A program made the position numbers and the translations under genes. From Desulfosoma sp. (GTDB taxonomy: Bacteria; Desulfobacterota; Syntrophobacteria; Syntrophobacterales; DSM-9756): a stretch of DNA of 64,000 bases. The stretch lies in NCBI GenBank assembly GCA_037481875.1, contig JBBFKY010000001.1, positions 248,001-312,000 on the forward strand, given 5' to 3'. Below the pieces are notes generated by a model, which saw only the letters and a program-made list of their open reading frames with translations, ran no database searches and was not told the DNA's origin. Shown piece after piece: positions 18,053 to 63,759 of this stretch (the first letter of the stretch is position 1; every line of letters starts with the position of its first letter).

Positions 18053-18296
18053 CGAGGAGGAAAGAGTTGGTTTCTTTCGCTCTGTATGCAGGAGCAAGGG
18101 GTGTGCCAAATGAGAAACCTTCGAGGCCAATCCGCTTCTGAAGCGCCATGGCGGCCCGTTTCCTTCTTTCTAGAAATTGCAAGCGGCCTAAGAATCGCGC
18201 CACAATCACGACAGATCGGCCATAAACACGCCATTATGGCTGGATTCCACGGGGGCATGGCTTGAGGAAGGTGCGTGGGTGTGGGCTCTAGATTGT

Positions 18297-32256: not shown

Positions 32257-33696
32257 ATGGCACCCGCGACTCCTGCGCTCATTTCCGGGCTCTTTTCTAG
32301 ACCGATCGAATGCGCCACCGCCTTGAACGACCTTCCTGACGCTCTCATTTTTTTGTCCCTTCATCGAAGGGTCCTCTTCTTGAACCGAGCGGCGGAGGTG
32401 CTCACGGGGCTTAGCGATGAACAGGCTCGAGGGCTGCCGTGCCGCCATGTCGTGCGCAGCAATCTTTGCCTCAGGGAATGTCCTTTCCGTCAACCCTGGG
32501 GTCATGGAGGGGCTCAGTGTCGTGAAGGGGACATCATCAATAGGGATCGACGTCGGGTTCCTGTGCGCATCAGCTACGTGGTTCTGAGAGACCTGGAAGG
32601 CGCCGTGGCCGGTTTCCTGGAAATTCTTGAAGATCTTCGGCCTTTTCAGATGCTGGAATCTCGATCAGGCCAAGCGGACCGGCTCAGCCGTATCATCGGT
32701 GGAAGTCCCGCCATGGAGCGGCTTTTCGGCATCCTTCCGGGCATTGCCCAGACCGATTCTTCGGTGCTCATTACGGGGGAAACCGGCACGGGCAAGGATC
32801 TTCTCGCTGAAGCCATTCATCAACTTTCGAGCCGGGCCAAAGGGCCTTTCGTAAAAGTCAATTGCGGAGCGCTGCCGGAAACCCTCTTGGAGTCCGAGCT
32901 TTTCGGGCATCAAAAGGGAGCCTTTACGGGCGCTGTGGAAAATAAACCGGGTAGATTCCGGCTGGCTCACAACGGCACGTTGTTTCTTACCGAGATCGGG
33001 GATCTGCCTTTACCTCTTCAAGTTAAGCTGCTCACTTTTCTGGACGACCATGTCATCTACCCTTTGGGTTCCACTAAAGGCACGCGCGTCGATGTGCGCA
33101 TCATCGCCGCCACCCATAGGGACCTTCAAGCCATGGTTCGGGAGGGCAAGTTTCGCCAGGATTTGCTCTATCGATTAAACGTGGTCCGAATTCACATTCC
33201 GCCCCTTCGAGAAAGGCGCGAAGATGTGCGGTTGCTGCTGGAGCATTTTCTTGCCGCTTTTGTTTCCAATTTTCAAAAGAATGTCAAAGGCTTTTCCAAG
33301 GATGCCTTGCGCTGTCTTTTGGAATACCCTTATCCTGGAAACGTGCGCGAGCTTAAAAACATTGTGGAATATGCGGTGAACGTGTGTCGTGAAGAGACCA
33401 TTGATGTGCATCACTTGCCGTCCTATGTGACAGAGATGCGGGATAGGGTTCTGCACGTGCCAGAGACTGGAGACCTGGAACCGCCGACGAAAAGTGTCTT
33501 CGTGGGGTTGCCTCTTGGCGCCGAAACGGCCGACTGGACCGCAATGGAGCGACGTCTCATTGTGGAAGCTCTTGTCAAGGCCAAAGGCAAACGAACTCGA
33601 GCGGCGCAAATTCTGGGCTGGGGGCGTTCCACTTTGTGGCGTAAGATGAAACAATACGGGCTTTTGGCTTCTGGATCCGACCAAGTGGACGTTTAG
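32257..33696 (+). CDS. PAS-containing sigma-54-dependent regulator
   Basis: A 479-residue bacterial enhancer-binding protein. Residues about 18-125 form a PAS-like sensor with an unusual cysteine cluster (RGLPCRHVVRSNLCLRECPF), which might bind a metal or respond to redox state. The AAA+ domain has Walker A GETGTGKD, the sigma-54-contacting GAFTGA loop, Walker B-like LFLTEIGD (Thr instead of Asp), and arginine fingers. The C-terminus has a Fis-type HTH (RTRAAQILGWGRSTLWRKM). It activates promoters recognised by sigma-54 RNA polymerase; targets unknown. It precedes the NifX-like and kinase genes. Confidence 0.9.
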   Translation: MAPATPALISGLFSRPIECATALNDLPDALIFLSLHRRVLFLNRAAEVLTGLSDEQARGLPCRHVVRSNLCLRECPFRQPWGHGGAQCREGDIINRDRRRVPVRISYVVLRDLEGAVAGFLEILEDLRPFQMLESRSGQADRLSRIIGGSPAMERLFGILPGIAQTDSSVLITGETGTGKDLLAEAIHQLSSRAKGPFVKVNCGALPETLLESELFGHQKGAFTGAVENKPGRFRLAHNGTLFLTEIGDLPLPLQVKLLTFLDDHVIYPLGSTKGTRVDVRIIAATHRDLQAMVREGKFRQDLLYRLNVVRIHIPPLRERREDVRLLLEHFLAAFVSNFQKNVKGFSKDALRCLLEYPYPGNVRELKNIVEYAVNVCREETIDVHHLPSYVTEMRDRVLHVPETGDLEPPTKSVFVGLPLGAETADWTAMERRLIVEALVKAKGKRTRAAQILGWGRSTLWRKMKQYGLLASGSDQVDV

Positions 33697-43177: not shown

Positions 43178-44604
43178 TTGTGGATGATGACCCGCAGCTG
43201 CGGCAAAGTTTTGGAAAGATTTTACGAGCCGAAGGCCATGAGGTGCGCATGGCCGGATCAGGGGAAGCAGGTCTGGCCGCCGTCAAGGAACGTGTGCCGG
43301 ATCTGGTGGTCTTAGATGTGCGTCTGCCCGGCATGTCGGGTCTGGAAACCTTTAAGGCCATGAAAGCGGTGGACCCCAAATTGCCCGTAATCGTCATGAC
43401 CGCTTACGGCACCACGGAAACGGCTATCGAAGCCACCAAAATGGGCGCTTTTGATTACGTCCTGAAGCCCTTTGACATTCCCGCCTTGCTGGACTTGGTT
43501 TCGCAAGCCATCAAAGCAGGTCGGTTCATGCGCAGCAAGGTGGCTTTGGACGCTCAGCCTGAATCGCCGCAAGAAGACGCTCTCATCGGCCGAAGCCGAG
43601 CCATGCAGGAAGTCTACAAAGCCATCGGGCGTGTGGCAGGAACCGATGCCACCGTGCTCATCCGTGGAGAATCGGGGACGGGCAAGGAGTTGGTGGCTCG
43701 AGCCATCTACCAGCACAGCCATCGATCCCATGGGCCTTTTTTGGTCATCAACTGTGTGGCCATTCCTGAAACGCTTCTTGAAAGCGAACTTTTCGGATAC
43801 GAAAAAGGGGCCTTTACCGGCGCGGTCACTCGCCGAATGGGCAAGGTGGAACAAGCTCATCGAGGCACCTTGTTTTTGGACGAAATCGGCGACATGCCGA
43901 TAAGCATTCAGGCTAAGCTTTTGAGGCTGCTTCAGGAACGCAGCATTGAAAGGTTAGGGGGCAAACGTCCCATCGCCGTGGATGTCCGCATTATCGCGGC
44001 CACCAACCGAAACCTGGAAGATGCGGTGGCTGAAGGGCGCTTTCGTGACGATCTTTTTTACCGACTCAATGTGGTGACCTTGACCCTGCCTCCTTTGCGT
44101 GACCGAAGGGAGGATATTCCTCTTCTGACAGAGTATTTCCTCAGCCGTTGCGCCGCCGAGATGGGGGTTCCTAATCCCGGGATCACCCAAGACGCCCTGG
44201 AATGTTTGATGGCCATGGACTGGCCGGGCAATGTTCGTCAGTTGGCCAACGTCATTCGCAAGGCTCTTATTTTCAATCGAGGTTTTCCTCTGGAACGTGC
44301 CGATGTTCAGCGTGTGGTGGGTGGGGAATCCAACGGGGAGGAGTCGGAAAAAAAGGCCAAAGATTTCGATGAAACGGCTTCCGTGCTGGATCAATGGATT
44401 CTTCAACACTTGGGAAAGGATGTTTCCGAAAGGCTTTTCGATTCTCTTGTCGATGATTTCAGCGCCCGAGTCATTCGGGTAGCTTTGGAAGTGACCAAAG
44501 GAAACCGAACCCATGCTGCCAAACTTTTGGGCATTTCTCGGCCGACCCTCTTGGCGCGCATGGAAAAATACGGCATTCGGGTCGAAGCCACCGTGGCGTC
44601 CTAA
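43162..44604 (+). CDS. NtrC-family sigma-54-dependent response regulator
   Basis: A 480-residue regulator with an N-terminal receiver ([10 protein letters not shown], phosphoacceptor Asp in [23 protein letters not shown]), a central AAA+ domain with Walker A GESGTGKE, intact GAFTGA in [10 protein letters not shown], Walker B LFLDEIGD, and a C-terminal Fis HTH ([19 protein letters not shown]). The GTG at 43162 follows GAGGAGCGGGGG and overlaps the kinase gene. It should activate sigma-54 promoters on phosphorylation by the upstream kinase. Target genes are unknown. Confidence 0.95.
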
Positions 44605-52513: not shown

Positions 52514-53287
52514 CTAAAGACGGGATACGTAGACAACGGCGGGCAGCCTCTGCGTTTCCTGAAGCCGGGCTTGAGCGTCGTTGAGGCTGACCGATTCCAC
52601 TTGGGCCGTGCCCAAAACTCGACCATCATGGGTAACAATCTTTACAGTGTCCCCCGGCGCCAGACCGTCGGTGCTTCCCAGCCCGAAAAAAACGGTGATG
52701 GTTTTGTCCTTGTTTTGAAGGGTTCGATAAACCGGTGCCATGCCTTGTCGCCGCAACTCTTGGTCCATCTTGTCACCAGCCTTATAGGACAACCAGAAGC
52801 ACAACACAAGAATCGGAAAAGCGCAGGCGGCCCCAACCCAGGGGCTGACACCAAGGTAACGCTGCACAAGGGATCGCTGTGAAGCGTGGTAGAGCTGCGC
52901 ATCGGCGAAAACGTGCAAGGAGTACAAAGGGTTTTCGGCAGCTTCCTCAGGTTTTTCTCCATGCAGGAACACGCGGAGGGTATAGGAGCCCTCGGGGGTT
53001 GTCGGCTCCACGGTGAGCTGAGCTCGCCAGAGCCGGCCTGTTGCTTCAAGAAACTGAAGGGAAACGCCAGGAGCCGTGGTTTCGTAGGTCAACCAACGTA
53101 AATCGGGAATGGCCGCTTCCGTCTTTCCCGCCACAGGTTTTTCCATGCCGGGGTACAGGCGAATCTCACGTTTCGGGGTTCGAAGGATATCCAAAATACC
53201 GTCAAGGACGCACAGGATCAGTATAAGCCCGACCACAAGGCCGAGCTTCTGAAATACCGTTGGTTGGGCTCCATGGGTAGAGGCCAT
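52514..53287 (-). CDS. membrane protein, unknown
   Basis: A 257-residue protein with two transmembrane helices, at about residues 14-32 (LGLVVGLILILCVLDGILDI) and about 150-170 (VGAACAFPILVLCFWLSY). The region between (about 115 residues) is beta-rich and probably extracytoplasmic. The C-terminal 80 residues are beta-rich and cytoplasmic (FFGLGSTDGLAPGDTVKIVT). No family recognised. It abuts the small gene upstream and is in the transporter operon. Confidence 0.7.
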   Translation of the reverse strand: MASTHGAQPTVFQKLGLVVGLILILCVLDGILDILRTPKREIRLYPGMEKPVAGKTEAAIPDLRWLTYETTAPGVSLQFLEATGRLWRAQLTVEPTTPEGSYTLRVFLHGEKPEEAAENPLYSLHVFADAQLYHASQRSLVQRYLGVSPWVGAACAFPILVLCFWLSYKAGDKMDQELRRQGMAPVYRTLQNKDKTITVFFGLGSTDGLAPGDTVKIVTHDGRVLGTAQVESVSLNDAQARLQETQRLPAVVYVSRL

Positions 53288-53288
53288 G

Positions 53289-53504
53289 TCAGTTCTCTCC
53301 GTGTGCGGTCAGACTGACTCCGGACAGACGCCGCACAAGGATCCAAGCCGTCAGCACGGTAACAAAGGCCATGGGCAGGTAGGTTTTGAGAAATACATTA
53401 GCCATGGCTTTTCCATAAGGCGCGCTCCAGTACATGCTTACCGCCAGCTCTGCCAGAAGCAATAGATCCATAAGGAGAACGATCAGTCTTTTCCGCGTTA
53501 TCAT
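53289..53504 (-). CDS. small membrane protein
   Basis: A 71-residue protein with two hydrophobic helices, at about residues 6-24 (RLIVLLMDLLLLAELAVSMY) and 41-58 (YLPMAFVTVLTAWILVRR). GGGAGGTCGCC precedes the ATG at 53504. It ends one base before the next gene, so co-transcribed. No family recognised. Confidence 0.65.
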   Translation of the reverse strand: MITRKRLIVLLMDLLLLAELAVSMYWSAPYGKAMANVFLKTYLPMAFVTVLTAWILVRRLSGVSLTAHGEN

Positions 53505-53622
53505 GGCGACCTCCCGGTCCTGAACGGAGTTCCCTTTTTTTGTTCCACTCCTTGCAAAGCGGGCTTCGGCGCGAGAAGAGTTCGCCGAAGCACCGCTCAC
53601 AATCACAAAAAGGCCGTTATTT

Positions 53623-53961
53623 TTATTTTTTCTTTAGATCTTGTTTGGAGACATTCATAATGCGTACTGCGATGCGCTCTGTGTTTTGGGTTCGAAAAGC
53701 GATACGTATCACATCCCCGGGTTGTGGTGGAATGCCGATAAGGGTTTGTTTCACGATCTTATACTCGGACGTCACTCCCGTGGGACGGCCGTAGGGATGT
53801 TCCTGGCTCTTGTGCGTATCGAATTCCTCGATAGTCAACGTGTTGTTGGCTTTGTCCACCGAGAGAACTTTTCCTTGAGCGACCTCTGCGGCCAGGCTGA
53901 CGGATGTCATGACAAGTGAGGCCGCAAAGACCAAAAGGGCGCCAAACAGGATTCGTTTCAT
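53623..53961 (-). CDS. secreted small protein
   Basis: A 112-residue protein with a signal peptide (KRILFGALLVFAASLVMTSV, cleavage likely after SLA). The mature 90 residues form a small beta domain (GKVLSVDKANNTLTIEEFD then GDVIRIAFRTQNTERIAVR), recalling an OB-like periplasmic fold. GGAGG precedes the ATG at 53961. It lies between the membrane genes and the TauE gene. Function unknown. Confidence 0.7.
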   Translation of the reverse strand: MKRILFGALLVFAASLVMTSVSLAAEVAQGKVLSVDKANNTLTIEEFDTHKSQEHPYGRPTGVTSEYKIVKQTLIGIPPQPGDVIRIAFRTQNTERIAVRIMNVSKQDLKKK

Positions 53962-54139
53962 GAAAAGACCTCCAGTTTTAGGGTTTTTTGAACTCATGTG
54001 TCGCTTGCCGCAATCGACTCTATCGGCCGGCTCATGGCTCTCGCAAGCTCACAAAAGCTTATTGTTTGAACTTATCGTTGAGATCCGGAACCTCATGGAC
54101 CGGCCGCGCTTTGGCGCCACCGGTCATGAATGTGCCAAG

Positions 54140-55177
54140 CTAGTGTAGTCGGGCTGCCGCTTCTCGAGCCCTCTTTTCCCGAAGCTCTTGAGCTGCTCCT
54201 CTGAACATGATGACACAGATATAAAGCGAAATCACACTGATGGCTCCAAGGACCACCACGGCAGCGGAGTTCGAAAATCCGTACTGCTTCAGAATGATGG
54301 AGACCATGCAGGCCAACACGGCAGCGCCGAAAAGGATGCGAATGCCGTAACCTTTGGCATACTTCGTGGCCACGGTGCCGATTTGAGCACCAATGGCAGC
54401 TCCGGTCAGCATCACAAAGACCGCCACCAATTCGATTCTTCCCTTCAAGCTGTAGGTGAAAGCTCCGTAGAGGCCTGAAATCATAACTTCAAAAAGATCG
54501 GTGCCCACCGCGATATGCGTCGGACAACCGATGAGATACACCAGAGCGGGCATTCTCAACAACCCGCCGCCGATGCCCAGGAAACCGGCCAAGACGCCCG
54601 TGGCGTAGCTCACCATGATGGGAAGCCAAGCGGAACAGGTGAACCCGGCCGTCTTGAAATGGACCATGGGAGGAATACGAATCTTGTGAAGCGTCTTGTA
54701 CCAGGTGATACCTTCCGTGCCTTTTTCGCCATCCACAATGCCGGCTCTTTTCTTCTTTTCCGCTTTATAAAAGTCATAGAACACGAGCCAGGCGATAAGG
54801 GCGAGAAAACCCACGTAAACCCAACGAACCACACCACCAACGACACCTAAACGCTCCAGATACATGATAAGCTGGGCACCGCATTCAATGCCCACCATGG
54901 TCCCTATGATCATGACAATTCCAAGCTTGTAGTCTACGTTGCCGAACTTGGAATGACGCATGGTGGACACCATGGACTTTCCTGCGATATGAGCAATATC
55001 GGTTCCGATGGCAAAGGCCATGGGAAATCCCAAAATGTTTAAACCTGGGGTGACCATCCAGGCGCCGCCCATGCCGAAAAACCCGCCGATGACGCCCACG
55101 GAAAATCCGATAATAACCAGGCCAGGCCACAAAATGTCCATTCCTGCAATGGGCATGTAAAGATACAACCAATCCAT
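54140..55177 (-). CDS. TauE/SafE-family permease
   Basis: A 345-residue membrane protein with about eight helices. GVIGGFFGMGGAWMVTPGLN and VLAGFLGIGGGLLRMPALVY are the duplicated TauE/SafE signature (G-x-GGGxxxxP). Members export sulfite or sulfoacetate, or import small sulfur compounds. GAAAGGAGG precedes the ATG at 55177. It lies downstream of a small secreted protein at 55200 in one operon. In this context an inorganic sulfur anion is a likely substrate. Confidence 0.88.
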   Translation of the reverse strand: MDWLYLYMPIAGMDILWPGLVIIGFSVGVIGGFFGMGGAWMVTPGLNILGFPMAFAIGTDIAHIAGKSMVSTMRHSKFGNVDYKLGIVMIIGTMVGIECGAQLIMYLERLGVVGGVVRWVYVGFLALIAWLVFYDFYKAEKKKRAGIVDGEKGTEGITWYKTLHKIRIPPMVHFKTAGFTCSAWLPIMVSYATGVLAGFLGIGGGLLRMPALVYLIGCPTHIAVGTDLFEVMISGLYGAFTYSLKGRIELVAVFVMLTGAAIGAQIGTVATKYAKGYGIRILFGAAVLACMVSIILKQYGFSNSAAVVVLGAISVISLYICVIMFRGAAQELREKRAREAAARLH

Positions 55178-55199: not shown

Positions 55200-55502
55200 T
55201 TAGTGCTCTACAATTTTGCGGCTCTTAAGATCCAAGCCAGTGCGGGCCATAAGAAAATCCATCAAGAAGCCAAGAAATGTTCCATACAAGGCAGTCAAGA
55301 CCACGGCCCAGACCGCAAAAAGGAGCGTATTGGTGTTGTAAAGGTCGGCGATGTACTTGACGAAAGCGTTGTTAAGCACACGTGTGTCGGCCACCACGAT
55401 GAGCTGGGCGACTTTTTCACCTCCGGCAGCCCATGCCAAGGACGGTACAACACTTAAGAACCCTGCCACCATGACGGCAATTTTCTTTGCAAGCTTTCTC
55501 AT
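55200..55502 (-). CDS. small signal-peptide and membrane protein
   Basis: A 100-residue protein. The first 25 residues are a signal peptide (KIAVMVAGFLSVVPSLAWAA), and a transmembrane helix lies at about residues 58-80 (TNTLLFAVWAVVLTALYGTF). The C-terminus is basic (KSRKIVEH). It starts the minus-strand TauE operon, 22 bases before the TauE gene, and may be an accessory subunit of the permease. Confidence 0.65.
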   Translation of the reverse strand: MRKLAKKIAVMVAGFLSVVPSLAWAAGGEKVAQLIVVADTRVLNNAFVKYIADLYNTNTLLFAVWAVVLTALYGTFLGFLMDFLMARTGLDLKSRKIVEH

Positions 55503-55819
55503 GGTTTGTTCCTCCTGCCTTCTGCCTTTGTCCATTTCTGATTCCATCCCGCTGAAGTCCTGTCTTATGTTTGTCATCGAGTTCCTTTGATCTGCACACC
55601 TCCTTTCCTTTTCCCTGTGCGTCTGCCTCTCTTATTTGGATCGATAATTTTTGTCCTTATGGCTGTCTTGCCAGCCTGAAAAAGGATCAAAAGCCGTGCC
55701 GGTTTCTGGAGCGAGCATTGCGCGATAGCCTATAAAGTTAAGTTTGAAGCCGCTTACATTTTTTCAAGAAAAAAAATCGCGCATTTCGATCAAGGTCAGA
55801 GAAAGTGTCTCGCAATGGT

Positions 55820-55836
55820 TTGCTGACGCTATGCCA
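55820..55836 (-). promoter_or_regulatory. candidate sigma-54 promoter, TauE operon
   Basis: On the minus strand TGGCATAGCGTCAGCAA has GG-N10-GC spacing but a weak -12 element (CAGCA). It is about 320 bases before the first minus-strand gene. Confidence 0.35.
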
Positions 55837-56012: not shown

Positions 56013-56028
56013 TGGCACAAAACCTGCC
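56013..56028 (+). promoter_or_regulatory. candidate sigma-54 promoter
   Basis: TGGCACAAAACCTGCC fits TGGCAC-N5-TTGC with one mismatch and has the GG-N10-GC spacing. It faces the AAA+ regulator. The start near 56084 leaves a short leader. Confidence 0.65.
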
Positions 56029-56083
56029 TAGGGGAAAATGCTGAAGGCAGTATCAAGGGATGGACGACGGCAAGGGTGACGAT

Positions 56084-58702
56084 ATGTCCATGAAGCTCAA
56101 ATGGCTCCAGCACGACCTTAACGGTTCTGCAGTAACTGGGTCTTTTCGGTCTTTACGCATTCGCACCAAACTGTGGCTCACGTTGGTGCCTACGGTGGTG
56201 ACGATTCTGGCCGTGACGGGATACGTGACGCACTGGTTTTCGCGTCAATTTCTTCAAGAATCGGTTAGCCGCACGGTGCTTTTACAGACCTTAGCGGTGG
56301 CGCACGAGTACGAAAGCATGATGTCTCGGTGCCGAGAAGATCTTGTGGAGTTGTCCCTCGGACCGGTGACCGAGGAAGGATTGCGAAAAAAATGGGCCCA
56401 TCTCAAGGCCGCGCGAGGGTGGGGTTACGTGGAAATGGGCTTCATGGACAAAAGCGGATCCAAAGCCATGATCTTGGCGGAATCGGAAGAAGGCCTCGAG
56501 CGAGTCTCCTTGGAACCTGGGACTTCCCTGTGGGATGGTGTGGGGATAGCGTCGGCGGAAACCCAAGGCCCTTCGAAAGGCGAAGCTGGACCCTGGGTGA
56601 GTTCGATAGTCCATGTGGGGTATCGATCGAGGGATGGTTCGGTTTTTTATGGAAAGGCCACCCATGTGGTTCGATTCATTAGCCGGAGTGAATCGAGGGA
56701 CGGCCAGGGTGAAGAAGGTTTTTTCTTTCTCTCCATGGACGCCCGGCAGTACAGGGATATTCTTTCGCTTTACAATTCCAGGCGTTCTCCGCTGTTTGGC
56801 TTTGTTCGCAGTCCGGAGTTGCGCTACCTCTATTTCATGGATCCTCAGGGGTGGATCCTTTTTCAATCAGAAGATGAGGTCGATGCAGGCAAAGCCCTCA
56901 ATACCGATACGGCGCGAAGCGGCCTCACAGGAACTTTCGGGCGTCCTGGGCTTCCCTTTGCGTTTCGCCCCAATGTGGACCAGCGGGATTACTGGGAGAT
57001 TGTCGGGAATATTCGCGAAAGGAAGTCCGGCGTTTTGGTGAGACGGATTTCTCCGACTTCGGAAAGCAAAGTGGATCGTGTCTACATCGGATATGCCCCG
57101 ATCTTGTTCTCGCGGGGGCCCGATGGGGCGAGTCTCTACGGCGCCGTCGTTTTTGTGGACCGAAGCCGTCTCATAACCATGGCAGGGTACCGTCAAGTGG
57201 ACGTGATGTTCATCATAAGCCTTTTGAGTTCCTTGCTGGTGGTCCTGCTTTTGTGGGGAATCAGCCGTGTGATCACCCGGCCCTTGTATCAATTGACGGC
57301 CGCGGTCAATGCCTTGCAGGAAAGCGGACACTTGGAAACGATAGAGATTCCGGACAAGGATCTTGAAACGGCCATGCTCAAGGAAGCTGTCAATGGACTG
57401 ATTCAGCGCCTTCAGGAACAAATGGCGGCTTTGGAGATGCAAGACAGGCAGTTGCGGGAAATGATCATGCGGGAGAGGATCTCGTTGGAGGAGGAATGCG
57501 ACGTTCTTCGGGTGGAGCGCGAAAAACTTCCGGAACCCTTGGCCAGGCTTGTGGGCCAATCCAGGGCGATGCAAAGGTTTCGTGAATTCATCATTCGGGC
57601 CGCGGTTGCCGAAGCGGATGTCCTGATCGTCGGAGAAACCGGAACCGGAAAGCAGCTGGCAGCTGAAGCCATTCATGCTCTCAGTCGCCGAGCCTCCCAG
57701 CCTTTTGTGGCCATCAACTGTGGCGCTTTGGATGAAAACCTGCTTCTGGACGCCCTTTTTGGTCATGTGAAAGGGGCCTTTTCCGAAGCCAAGGGCGATC
57801 GAAAAGGAGCCTTTTTGGCCGCCGACGGCGGAACACTTTTCTTAGACGAAATCGGCACGGCTTCGCCCAAAGTGCAGCAGGCTCTCTTGCGGGTTATTGC
57901 CGAGCGTCGAGTGCGCCCTCTTGGGAGCGACAGGGAAGTCCCTGTAGATGTGCGGCTCGTGGCCGCAACCAATGAGGATCTGTTGGATCTCACACGCCGA
58001 GGTCTCTTTCGCGAAGATCTCTATTACAGACTCAATGTGCTCACATTGCACACCCCTCCCCTGAGGGAACGCCGAGAAGACATTCCGCTCTTGGCGGCGC
58101 ATTTTTTGGCAAGAGCCGGGCGTCAGTTCAAACGTCCCAACGTGTCCCTCACCCAAGGAGCCTTGGAAGCACTCATGGCGCATCCCTGGCCTGGCAATGT
58201 GAGGGAGCTGGAAAACCGTCTCACTCGAGCGGTGACCATGGCAGAAGGATCTTTGATTCATGCCTCTGATTTGGAACTGGATCGGGATCCTTTGATGAAC
58301 GGCTCGGACTCTGTGGATACTTTGAAGGGAGTCTTGGAAGCACGTGCAAAGGGCGCCTCGACGGATGTGGGAGAATTGGGCGCGGTCCGTTTCGACGAAG
58401 GACAGAAAGAGGAACCGAAGCCATCGTCCAAGGGTGGACCTTCTTCCACCCTGGTGGAGATCAATGAGCGGCAGAGAAAAGCACTGGAAGCCATTCTTGA
58501 GCGAGGCCATATGACGCGTGCCGAGTACCAGGAGATTGTGGGAGGTGGAATCGCTCCACGGACGGCGCTCAGTGATTTGCAGGACTTGGTTGCCAAAGGG
58601 CTGCTCAAAAAAACAGGTCGAGGCCCGGCAACGCGCTACAGACTTTTGCATCGAGGACGCCTTGTGGCCTCTGGGAACCAAACATTCGGAGGGTCTTCAT
58701 GA
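56084..58702 (+). CDS. membrane-bound AAA+ regulator with altered GAFTGA loop
   Basis: An 872-residue regulator. Transmembrane helices lie at about residues 28-48 and about 372-392, with a roughly 320-residue extracytoplasmic Cache-like sensor between, then a HAMP-like region and coiled coil. The AAA+ domain has Walker A GETGTGKQ and Walker B LFLDEIGT, but the sigma-54 loop reads GAFSEA instead of GAFTGA. The C-terminus is not Fis-type but a winged-helix-like segment (EAILERGHMTRAEYQEIVGG then ALSDLQDLVAKGLL). It may therefore not activate sigma-54 holoenzyme. The ATG at 56084 is chosen because AAGGGTG is well placed; an in-frame ATG at 56060 is possible. It overlaps the next gene by 4 bases. 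Confidence 0.88.
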   Translation: MSMKLKWLQHDLNGSAVTGSFRSLRIRTKLWLTLVPTVVTILAVTGYVTHWFSRQFLQESVSRTVLLQTLAVAHEYESMMSRCREDLVELSLGPVTEEGLRKKWAHLKAARGWGYVEMGFMDKSGSKAMILAESEEGLERVSLEPGTSLWDGVGIASAETQGPSKGEAGPWVSSIVHVGYRSRDGSVFYGKATHVVRFISRSESRDGQGEEGFFFLSMDARQYRDILSLYNSRRSPLFGFVRSPELRYLYFMDPQGWILFQSEDEVDAGKALNTDTARSGLTGTFGRPGLPFAFRPNVDQRDYWEIVGNIRERKSGVLVRRISPTSESKVDRVYIGYAPILFSRGPDGASLYGAVVFVDRSRLITMAGYRQVDVMFIISLLSSLLVVLLLWGISRVITRPLYQLTAAVNALQESGHLETIEIPDKDLETAMLKEAVNGLIQRLQEQMAALEMQDRQLREMIMRERISLEEECDVLRVEREKLPEPLARLVGQSRAMQRFREFIIRAAVAEADVLIVGETGTGKQLAAEAIHALSRRASQPFVAINCGALDENLLLDALFGHVKGAFSEAKGDRKGAFLAADGGTLFLDEIGTASPKVQQALLRVIAERRVRPLGSDREVPVDVRLVAATNEDLLDLTRRGLFREDLYYRLNVLTLHTPPLRERREDIPLLAAHFLARAGRQFKRPNVSLTQGALEALMAHPWPGNVRELENRLTRAVTMAEGSLIHASDLELDRDPLMNGSDSVDTLKGVLEARAKGASTDVGELGAVRFDEGQKEEPKPSSKGGPSSTLVEINERQRKALEAILERGHMTRAEYQEIVGGGIAPRTALSDLQDLVAKGLLKKTGRGPATRYRLLHRGRLVASGNQTFGGSS

Positions 58703-61311
58703 GGAATCTGTGGCAACGGCTCAAGAATCGATTAGGCTTGGAGCGAGAACAAAACCCAGAGCACATTGCCGACATTTTTCGTTTCAAGTACAGCCACTTC
58801 AAAGATCTGCTGCAGTCCAACACGGATCTGGCTCAGATCATTGCAGACATGAGCGAGAAACTACAAGGTTACCACATCTTCGGCATGGGATACGTACGCT
58901 CCAAGGCGAGCCTGGCCATGTCTCAGGCGGTGCGTATGGTGCGCGCTCTCAATGCTCTGTCTTTTCACCGATACGCTGCTTTGGAACAGGCTTTGGAAAA
59001 AATTCGAATGGCTATAGTGAAGGAATTGGAGTCGGAGCTGGAGAAAACCGAAGAGTGTCCTGAACTGGTGATCCCGTTGGAAAAAGTGCACCGGGGCATG
59101 GTGGACTGGGTGGGAGGAAAGAGCGCCAACCTTGGTGAGATCACAGCTCGTGCAGGACTTCGTGTACCGGAAGGTTTCGCCGTCACCACTCGAGCTTTCC
59201 AATTGTTTATGGATCAAGGGGATCTTCGAGATTGGATTCGAAAGTACAAAAACGAAACGGACATGTCCTCGCCGGCTTCTGTGCAGGAACTGAGTGAAAC
59301 CGTGCAGCACCTGATCTTGCGTACCCCTGTGCCTCGAGAACTTCAGGAAGCTCTGCTGTCAGCTTACGATACTCTGGCAACCCACGTGTCTCAAAGGGAT
59401 GAGCTGAAATGGGATGTGCGGGTTGCTATGCGTAGCAGCGCCATCGGGGAAGACAGCGATCTTTCCTTTGCGGGTCAGTATGTAAGCGTTCTCAATGTGG
59501 AGCGTTCGAAGCTGGCGGATACATACCGGATTATCGTGGCCAGCCTTTATACGCCTCGAGCCATTGCCTACCGGTATCAGAAGGGGATTCGAGACGAAGA
59601 CACGGCCATGGGCGTCACGGTGTTGGAAATGGTTGATTCTGTAGCCGCCGGAGTCGCCTATTCCACGAATCCATTGGACCCGAATCCTGAAGAATTGTTG
59701 ATTTCCGGAATTTACGGTTTAGGTCCTTACGTGGTGGAAGGCGTGATGACGCCCGATATGGTGCGGGTGTCCAAGAAACCAGGTTTTCATATTTTAGAAA
59801 AAAAACCGTCCTTCAAGCCGGTGCGCCTGGTCATGAATGAGGAGGGGGGACTGAGGGAGGTTCCTGTGCCAGAGTCGGATAGAGACCGATTGTGTCTTTC
59901 GGATGAGACCATTCAACGGTTGGCCGAGGCTGTCACACGGTTGGAAAAACACTTTGGGGGCCCCCAGGACGTGGAGTGGGCGGTGGACGGGAGGGGAGAG
60001 CTGTTTATTCTTCAGAGCCGTCCATTGCAGATTCTTTGGGAGTCTGTTGAAAGCGCTTCGGCGGAGGGAGAGTCCGGTGAGAATGAGCCTGGAGTGCTTG
60101 CAGCCGGAGGCGCCACGGCCGTGCCGGGGGTCGGGTGCGGAACGGTGTATACGGTTCGAAATGATGAAGACTTGGCTGACTTTCCTCAGAACGGCGTGCT
60201 TGTGGCGGCGCATTCGTCGCCATCCTATGTGGTCGTGATGGCTCGAGCGGCGGCCATTGTCACGGAGGCCGGCAGTATCACGGGGCACATGGCTTCCGTG
60301 GCCAGAGAATTCGGTGTCCCAACACTTCTTGGGGTTCCTGGTCTGATGCGTGTTTTGAAACCAGGCCTTATGGTCACAGTGGATGCCTTGCGACGTCGTA
60401 TCTATGACGGCGTTCGAGAAGATCTGATCCGGGAGTCTCAAGAAAGACGTCCGTTCATGAAAGGAACACCTGTTTATGAAAGCTTGAGCCGAGTCGCCAG
60501 GTGGATTGTCCCTTTGAACCTGGTGGATCCTCGAGATGCCTCTTTTCGGCCGGAAGGATGCCGCACCTTACATGATGTCATGCGCTTTGCCCATGAAATG
60601 TCCTACCAGGAAATGTTTCGGTTAAGCGACAGTTTTGCCGAGGGCGAAGGCCGAGCCGTTAAGGTGGAAGCTCGGTTGCCCATCGATCTTTATGTCATTG
60701 ACCTGGGTGGAGGGTTAGCGCCGGTAGGCGCCCATGGCTCTCGAGTGCACCTGGAACATTTGACATGCGCCCCTTTGCGGGCGCTTCTGGAAGGCATGAC
60801 CCATGAAGCCCTGCAGGAACAAGGGCCGAGGCCGGTGCATCTCAAAGGTTTTTTGTCCGTCATGACCGAGCAGATGCTTTCGCCACCTCGTTTGGGCGCC
60901 GAAAGGTTCGGTGACAAGAGCTATGCCATCATTGCGGACCGATACATGAACTTCAGTTCCCGGGTCGGTTATCACTACAGCATTGTGGACACATACAGCG
61001 GCCAAGATTCCCACAAAAATTACATCACCTTTTCCTTCATGGGAGGTGCGGCCGATGAGGTTCGGCGAAACCGACGTGTGAGAACCATCGGCCGCATTCT
61101 GGAACACATGGATTTTCGCGTCGATGTGGTCGGGGATCGCGTGACGGCTCGTGTCCTAAAGTATCCCCTCGAGAAAATTCTGGAGCGCCTGGAACGACTC
61201 GGTCGCCTGCTTCAGTTCACGAGACAGTTGGATATGTTTATGGAAAGCGAACGTTCCGTGGAGGAATTGGCCCGCCGCTTCCTGGAAGAACAGTATTCTT
61301 TGACCGCCTGA
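58699..61311 (+). CDS. phosphoenolpyruvate-synthase-like protein, atypical C-terminus
   Basis: An 870-residue protein. After about 110 unique residues comes an ATP-grasp PEP/pyruvate-binding domain (VGGKSANLGEITARAGLRVP, AMRSSAIGEDSDLSFAGQYV, closing ILQSRPLQ). Next is the swivelling phosphohistidine domain with the His in EAGSITGHMASVAREFGVP. The last roughly 300 residues are not the PEP-utilising TIM barrel of PpsA; they contain DLGGG and LERLGRLLQFTRQLDM and are unrecognised. It may phosphorylate an unknown acceptor rather than make PEP. ATGA overlap with the regulator upstream implies coupled translation. Confidence 0.8.
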   Translation: MRNLWQRLKNRLGLEREQNPEHIADIFRFKYSHFKDLLQSNTDLAQIIADMSEKLQGYHIFGMGYVRSKASLAMSQAVRMVRALNALSFHRYAALEQALEKIRMAIVKELESELEKTEECPELVIPLEKVHRGMVDWVGGKSANLGEITARAGLRVPEGFAVTTRAFQLFMDQGDLRDWIRKYKNETDMSSPASVQELSETVQHLILRTPVPRELQEALLSAYDTLATHVSQRDELKWDVRVAMRSSAIGEDSDLSFAGQYVSVLNVERSKLADTYRIIVASLYTPRAIAYRYQKGIRDEDTAMGVTVLEMVDSVAAGVAYSTNPLDPNPEELLISGIYGLGPYVVEGVMTPDMVRVSKKPGFHILEKKPSFKPVRLVMNEEGGLREVPVPESDRDRLCLSDETIQRLAEAVTRLEKHFGGPQDVEWAVDGRGELFILQSRPLQILWESVESASAEGESGENEPGVLAAGGATAVPGVGCGTVYTVRNDEDLADFPQNGVLVAAHSSPSYVVVMARAAAIVTEAGSITGHMASVAREFGVPTLLGVPGLMRVLKPGLMVTVDALRRRIYDGVREDLIRESQERRPFMKGTPVYESLSRVARWIVPLNLVDPRDASFRPEGCRTLHDVMRFAHEMSYQEMFRLSDSFAEGEGRAVKVEARLPIDLYVIDLGGGLAPVGAHGSRVHLEHLTCAPLRALLEGMTHEALQEQGPRPVHLKGFLSVMTEQMLSPPRLGAERFGDKSYAIIADRYMNFSSRVGYHYSIVDTYSGQDSHKNYITFSFMGGAADEVRRNRRVRTIGRILEHMDFRVDVVGDRVTARVLKYPLEKILERLERLGRLLQFTRQLDMFMESERSVEELARRFLEEQYSLTA

Positions 61312-62902: not shown

Positions 62903-63309
62903 GAAATCATTATCCCTGTCCCTTTGAAGACGCACGCCTCCATTTCATGAAGCAAAACCCGCGCCCACAGGAGGCAAAAAGGGTCGACGGTAACAAGGCC
63001 GCCCATGGCATTCTGGGGCGGACACATCGGTCCGCCTTCACAGGGGCCGGGCAAGGTGCCGGCTGTGTTTGACGAACTGTAAAAGGTTCTGACAGCGAAA
63101 ATTCTGTCCACACCTGGCCGGGGTGCACGGTTTGGCATTCAGAACGGCTGAAGATTAGCCTTTTTCAAAGGGAAGAGGCGACCGGTTATCCTGGCACGTT
63201 CATTGCCCGTCCAGAAAACCGTAAGCCGAGAAACAGGATTTGTTGCGATGGCTGGTGTTCGTCAACCGGTACGAATCGCTCGTTCAAGTGGAAAAGGACC
63301 ACCGCGTTC
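62903..63309. other. intergenic gap with repeat and sigma-54-like promoter
   Basis: About 400 bases between divergent genes, holding a repeat copy (63012-63046) and a strong sigma-54-like site at 63192-63207. No gene. Confidence 0.6.
63192..63207 (+). promoter_or_regulatory. candidate sigma-54 promoter
   Basis: TGGCACGTTCATTGCC matches the sigma-54 consensus TGGCAC-N5-TTGC perfectly, with GG-N10-GC spacing. It faces the receiver and third Cache-kinase gene. Confidence 0.75.
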
Positions 63310-63759
63310 ATGGACCGACCGTTTCGCATCCTGGTAACCGACCGAAACCGTCATGTGCGCGCCTTTCTTCGAAGGGAACTCACACAAGACGGATACGAGG
63401 TCATGGAAGCCGGAGACTGTCGGGAAGTGCAAAAAATTCTACGTTCTCCCGTGATCGTGGACCTTTTGGTTTTTGATCCGGACATTGCTTGGGAGAGCCA
63501 TCGCCTAATCTTGCGGAATCTTCGAGAGCGATATCCATCAATGCGCGTGGTGCTTCACAGCCTTTGGGACGATGCGTGCCTGGTCCAGCACGTGCACGCT
63601 GCGGTGTCCAAAACGGGATCCCTTAAGGAATTGAAAGAGGTGGTGTCTCGCCTGCTCGCACCTGAGGTTTTGGAAGACCCAACGAAGCCAAACTCCTGCG
63701 AAGGCTCATGGCCTCAGTCAAGGGACAAGGAAGGGGAACGGAATGATCACGGCGGATGA
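63310..63759 (+). CDS. atypical response-regulator-like receiver
   Basis: A 149-residue receiver-like protein. The acidic pair region is reduced (ILVTDRNRHV), the phosphoacceptor Asp is probably in LLVFDPDIAWE, the switch position is Ser (VLHSLW), and a Lys occurs in AVSKTGSLKEL. It may be phosphorylated poorly. The last 40 residues are hydrophilic and unconserved. It overlaps the Cache-kinase gene at 63743 by 17 bases. Confidence 0.75.
   Translation: MDRPFRILVTDRNRHVRAFLRRELTQDGYEVMEAGDCREVQKILRSPVIVDLLVFDPDIAWESHRLILRNLRERYPSMRVVLHSLWDDACLVQHVHAAVSKTGSLKELKEVVSRLLAPEVLEDPTKPNSCEGSWPQSRDKEGERNDHGG

Follow-up and report, generated by a model that had tools for sequence, protein, structure and literature searches.

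A GAFSEA-type AAA+ regulator and a PEP-synthase-like dikinase in a TauE/SafE permease locus of Desulfosoma

In the window (the whole stretch of 64,000 nucleotides of Desulfosoma sp. DNA that was analysed), two overlapping genes encode a membrane-anchored AAA+ regulator and a PEP-synthase-like dikinase. The best reading of the sequence data is that the regulator acts as a sigma-54 activator of the divergent TauE/SafE permease operon, and probably also of its own operon. We favor this reading because the layout matches that of DVU0151 of Desulfovibrio vulgaris, because the TauE/SafE neighbor is conserved, and because -24/-12 sites are enriched in the intergenic regions of the regulator. The complete account, in which the dikinase in addition phosphorylates an acceptor via His530, appears likely to us. 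The regulator type is already described, and the dikinase represents a new variation on a known enzyme architecture.

We infer the ligand, the activation, and the dikinase chemistry in the following scheme. A periplasmic ligand would bind the dCache sensor of the regulator, and the signal would pass through the HAMP segment to the cytoplasmic AAA+ ring. The ring, bound to DNA via the winged helix, would remodel sigma-54 RNA polymerase and activate the anion-permease operon (TauE/SafE, TSUP) that diverges from the regulator; in the Desulfosoma-type family, it would also switch on its own operon, dikinase included. The dikinase would move the β-phosphate of ATP onto His530, with AMP and Pi leaving, and the phospho-His530 domain would then swivel and deliver the phosphate to an acceptor held by the enzyme's own C-terminal domain. 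A permease-linked small molecule is the probable acceptor, with a protein from the same pathway as the alternative.

Two overlapping genes divergent from a permease operon

The locus contains the following genes.

52514..53997, minus strand: more genes belonging to the divergent operon (p124, p105, and p257), membrane or secreted, partly conserved
54140..55177, minus strand: TauE/SafE (TSUP) permease, oriented divergently to the regulator gene
55200..55577, minus strand: small membrane protein encoded first in the divergent permease operon and kept together with the permease in most loci
56060..58702, plus strand: regulator, a membrane-anchored one-component AAA+ protein of 880 aa (872 aa if started at the ATG at 56084)
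58699..61311, plus strand: PEP-synthase-like dikinase of 870 aa, in ATGA overlap with the regulator gene

An earlier reading made from the DNA letters alone (the sequence-only reading) had placed two open reading frames here, joined by an ATGA overlap, and ORF analysis locates that overlap at 58699-58702. The same overlap is found in the near relative L067 (spacing of -4), and the spacing between regulator and dikinase ranges from -53 to about +200 in other loci. Another genome from this genus (G002, contig C9) has the same genes, with 76% identity between the dikinases.

A dikinase with a C-terminal domain in place of the PEP barrel

59104..60057, plus strand: ATP-grasp domain (PPDK_N; Pfam, 8.3e-93)
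60181..60387, plus strand: swivelling phosphohistidine domain (PEP-utilizers; Pfam, 2e-18)
60286-60288, plus strand: codon of the catalytic His530, from the alignment with PEP synthase
58699..59064, plus strand: N-terminal extension of ~120 aa, without Pfam match
60445..61308, plus strand: C-terminal domain of ~290 aa replacing the PEP barrel, from alignment and model

The second gene had been described as having the ATP-grasp and phosphohistidine domains of PpsA without its PEP barrel, and the Pfam scan agrees, since it gave no match to a PEP/pyruvate barrel in the dikinase. The protein shares with PEP synthase (PpsA; 8a8e, 9dae, and 2ols) the two domains in the same order and the catalytic His, but it differs in the missing barrel, in the extra N terminus, and in a C-terminal domain without Pfam match. 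PDB alignments with PEP synthases run out at about residue 600, and the dikinase scores well below the PEP-synthase NCBIfam cut-offs. Residues R245, E251, D252, E426, and Q439 of the ATP-grasp domain are kept in 48 to 49 of 49 homologs, and His530, which aligns with the catalytic His of PEP synthase, is invariant in all 49. The dikinase family has the residues that an active enzyme would be expected to carry.

A similar build is known from rifampin phosphotransferase and from HpeHI/CreHI/phenylphosphate synthase, where an ATP-grasp domain and a phosphohistidine carrier likewise feed a different acceptor domain. In rifampin phosphotransferase and the phenolic dikinases, however, the His domain comes last or the domains are divided between two proteins, whereas the His domain is central here, and the C-terminal domain of the dikinase has no clear match to the structures of these enzymes. 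We rejected an identification as rifampin phosphotransferase, given a score of 218 bits against a cut-off of 999 and a His domain that is central, not C-terminal. Our literature search found no biochemistry or assigned substrate for the dikinase family, and queries on DVU0150-DVU0147, DVU0152, the ortholog tags, and PEP-synthase-like genes with TauE returned nothing relevant beyond PMC4641369. The earlier label of an unknown phosphotransfer enzyme stays fair, and the name "PEP synthase" would probably be wrong for this family.

The C-terminal domain has its own set of invariant positions (C621, D626, H632, E633, H759, N774, GG782-783, R793, R842, and D845), and its C-x3-HD-x2-R-x2-HE set is kept in 48 to 49 of 49 members. 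A Pfam scan of the 49 C-terminal domains gave only scattered matches at chance level. The domain model is fairly confident (pLDDT of 85.5, pTM of 0.74). A PDB fold search with it returned no trustworthy match (best Foldseek E value of 0.019 with a TMq of 0.17; best VIA match with Z of 5.7 and rmsd of 4.4 over 134 aligned residues), an absence that does not show a new fold. By analogy with the dikinases of similar build, this domain is presumed to bind the acceptor.

Of 297 Desulfobacterota genomes sampled, 107 carry the domain, some in as many as 8 copies, and it was also found in 3 of 199 genomes from a phylum reached through a Planctomycetota locus; most copies lie in full-length frames of dikinase size. 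Two members are fused to a C-terminal DSP/PTP phosphatase with an intact HCRLGIGRT signature. These members (L100:1480-5238, 1252 aa; L101:7013-10792, 1259 aa) carry a further Cys-rich tail besides the phosphatase, and each follows genes for a histidine kinase and a receiver. A 1063-aa relative of the dikinase (L099:720-3911) has an additional region at its C terminus, with weak similarity to lectin-like beta domains.

Nature of the acceptor

Our one reason for leaning toward a small-molecule acceptor is that characterised relatives act on small molecules. The acceptor is rifampin for one dikinase of similar build (PMC4844700), and hydroxyphenylethanones, phenol, and cresol for others (PMC12167813). 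The dikinase neighborhoods, made up of TauE/SafE permeases, Cache kinases, and receivers, would suit a signalling acceptor as well as a transported metabolite.

A less likely possibility is that the dikinase acts in signalling, with a protein partner (regulator, receiver, kinase, or permease) as its acceptor instead of a metabolite. Such a role would agree with the HK2-type kinase found near 38 of 58 members, with the receiver gene directly before 11 of the 58, with the phosphatase fusions, and with the presence of up to 8 dikinase copies in one genome. However, a regulated transport locus would show such kinase neighbors too, and the small-molecule activity of the characterised enzymes points the other way. 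We consider it doubtful that the C-terminal domain defines a new class of dikinases phosphorylating a protein or signal metabolite in TauE/SafE-linked circuits of sulfate reducers; if it did, the PTP phosphatase fused to some members would reverse the mark. The identity of the acceptor would explain the recurring transport-and-signalling locus of these bacteria.

Architecture of the regulator

56159..56215, plus strand: transmembrane segment 1 (residues 34-52, hydropathy)
56255..57175, plus strand: extracytoplasmic dCache-type sensor (about residues 66-372, from alignment with the TlpQ LBD 6fu4)
57197..57253, plus strand: transmembrane segment 2 (residues 380-398, hydropathy)
57260..57418, plus strand: HAMP-like linker (residues 401-453; Pfam, 2.9e-4, below the gathering score)
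57548..58279, plus strand: sigma-54-activator AAA+ domain and lid (residues 497-740)
57773..57790, plus strand: L1 loop GAFSEA (residues 572-577)
58466..58645, plus strand: C-terminal winged-helix-like DNA-binding domain, from the model and a sub-threshold Pfam match

The anatomy first proposed for the regulator, an extracytoplasmic sensor and an AAA+ domain with a GAFSEA loop, followed by a C terminus that resembles a winged helix rather than Fis, was confirmed by Pfam, hydropathy, and the model. The domains follow one another in the order transmembrane segment, dCache sensor, transmembrane segment, HAMP, PF00158 AAA+, and winged helix, and hydropathy places a periplasmic part of ~325 residues between the two hydrophobic segments. 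Pfam reports Sigma54_activat (2.8e-61), AAA_lid_14, and a weak HAMP. As in sigma-54 enhancer-binding proteins, the regulator has a PF00158 AAA+ domain whose ATPase motifs are intact, and it conserves Walker A (GETGTGK), Walker B (GGTLFLDE), FREDLYYR, and WPGNVRE.

An AlphaFold model built from 18 orthologs had a mean pLDDT of 69, with most sensor blocks at 70 to 94. The modelled sensor aligns to the dCache domain of TlpQ (6fu4; Z of 18.3, rmsd of 3.2, 234 residues), and the AAA+ part aligns to sigma-54 activators. As the dCache matches include receptors for different ligands, we claim no ligand for the sensor. The C-terminal ~60 residues are modelled as helix-strand-helix-helix-strand-strand, which is the winged-helix order; Pfam matches to winged helices at this end were only sub-threshold, and the Pfam scan reported no Fis domain in the regulator.

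Compared with classical bEBPs (ZraR 1ojl, NifA, NtrC1, and PspF), the regulator has the same PF00158 AAA+ domain, Walker A and B motifs, arginine-finger segment, and lid, with an AAA+ identity of roughly 40 to 50%, but it differs in its membrane-anchored dCache-HAMP input, in an acidic residue at position 5 of the loop, and in the winged helix instead of Fis. A closer counterpart is DVU0151 of D. vulgaris. The relevant section of Kazakov 2015 (PMC4641369) lists DVU0151 as a single-component EBP with GAFSEA and a long N-terminal region, without an annotated Fis domain and with a winged-helix match in its orthologs. On comparative grounds, the same section places it divergent from a predicted sigma-54 operon, DVU0150-DVU0146, assigned to transmembrane transport, and it counts nine operons of the transport and metabolism group that encode TSUP or PSE permeases. 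The Desulfosoma regulator shares with DVU0151, as described there, the loop, the long N-terminal sensor region, the winged helix for Fis, and the divergent sigma-54 transport operon, and from these matching features we infer that it is a DVU0151-type ortholog. A difference from that description is the additional sigma-54 site of the regulator operon, together with the overlapping dikinase gene that comes next; the dCache sensor and the dikinase partner seen here are not named for DVU0151 in that section of PMC4641369. Elsewhere in the window, two more sigma-54-type AAA+ regulators are encoded at about 32671-33399 and 43576-44349.

The L1 loop and sigma-54 promoters

Exact GAFTGA is absent from the L1 loop of the regulator, which reads GAFSEA. 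Its relatives have GAFSEA, GAFSDA, or GAFTEA, so that GAF[ST][ED]A is found in 16 of 18 orthologs; two divergent orthologs, L109 and L112, have WAYTEA and GAHSEA and depart from GAFTGA also at positions 1 and 3. Across the 18 aligned orthologs, position 4 is always Ser or Thr, and position 5 is always acidic and never Gly. A published survey regards Thr or Ser as normal at position 4, accepting Ser, and describes substitutions or deletions in sigma-70-type members as disabling (PMC3162934). In NorR, Asp at position 5 gave an active, even constitutive, protein, whereas Glu replacing the Gly was non-functional (PMC2941729). The section of PMC4641369 on DVU0151 lists its GAFSEA among the variants expected to keep activity. 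In the loop alignment proposed in the sequence-only reading, position 5 departs from GAFTGA, but GAFSEA had already been published as compatible with activity. The loop alone settles nothing, because surveys accept GAFSEA while the NorR data are mixed.

The following sites were found between the regulator and the permease operon.

56013..56028, plus strand: sigma-54 -24/-12 site TGGCACAAAACCTGCC, before the regulator-dikinase operon, score of 15.1 of 20
55821..55836, minus strand: weaker GG-N10-GC site TGGCATAGCGTCAGCA, facing the TauE/SafE operon, score of 12.5

The genome encodes RpoN. The first site aligns with TGGCATGGAAGGTGCT in L067, and the weak TauE-facing site is not conserved there. 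The pattern matching the site at 56013 was expected 0.5 times in 64 kb and was found 3 times. The further matches lie at 18094-18108 (minus strand) and at 63192-63206 (plus strand), the latter upstream of an operon that begins at 63310 and encodes a receiver and a Cache kinase.

Sites were scored with a -24/-12 matrix written by hand from the known consensus, and the controls were random 600-base windows and the sequences preceding other genes of these loci. Sites scoring at least 14 were present in 14 of 17 regulator intergenic regions compared with 5% of the controls, and sites scoring at least 17 were present in 9 of the 17 compared with 0.8 to 2.3%. The site faces the permease in most genomes (score of at least 14 in 11 of 17 regions), and in the Desulfosoma-type family it also faces the regulator. 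A dyad count made without promoter input ranked TGGC-N7-TTGC first (11 of 17 regions versus at most 6 in shuffles). An operator search of the 17 intergenic regions found no recurring palindromes, and the dyad search gave only the sigma-54 signature; a second dyad, GCCG-N7-TGCG, located 195 to 505 bases upstream of the regulator start, was provisionally assigned to the divergent gene.

These data bear on whether the regulator has lost contact with sigma-54 through its acidic loop and now functions at sigma-70 promoters or by repression, in the manner of TyrR, DhaR, HupR, or VpsR. The fixed non-Gly position 5, the inactivity of NorR with Glu there, the two divergent loops, and a DNA-binding domain that is modelled as not Fis-like would all be in keeping with such a loss. 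Yet the -24/-12 sites are strongly enriched in exactly the regulator intergenic regions, Thr or Ser is kept at position 4 whereas sigma-70-type members carry changes described as disabling, NorR works with Asp at position 5, and the DVU0151 loop is among those expected to stay active, so we consider the loss unlikely. The sequence-only reading had set the regulator apart from the sigma-54 activators on account of GAFSEA and the winged helix; DVU0151, the Ser at position 4, and the sigma-54 sites speak against this. The regulator family can serve as a natural test case for the L1-loop rule, as an acidic position 5 is fixed beside sigma-54 promoters and Glu at that position inactivated NorR.

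Conservation of the neighborhood

The two genes had also been proposed to form a pair, to be searched for in other genomes. The pairing is conserved, with the dikinase directly downstream of the regulator in 13 of 18 testable loci and absent from that place in 5, but the divergent TauE/SafE permease gene keeps its place more strictly, adjoining the regulator in all 19 of the regulator loci for which the sequence extended far enough. It is unlikely that the adjacency is due to chance, the regulator serving the permease operon only and the dikinase working elsewhere: the 5 loci without an adjacent dikinase, and the fact that most dikinase copies have no DVU0151-type regulator beside them, would suit this explanation, but the regulator-then-dikinase order spans several families at 34 to 71% regulator identity, and many of the regulator-less dikinase copies are still near TauE/SafE genes.

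In total, 27 genome places matched the query regulator. A second permease cluster (L066:2897-12213; G000:C1, about 314897-324213) lies a little beyond the right end of the window. It comprises a TauE/SafE permease, a membrane protein, a dikinase paralog (38% identical), and a GAF histidine kinase, then a fusion of an acyl-CoA synthetase with a GNAT domain, and parts of this cluster recur in other genomes.
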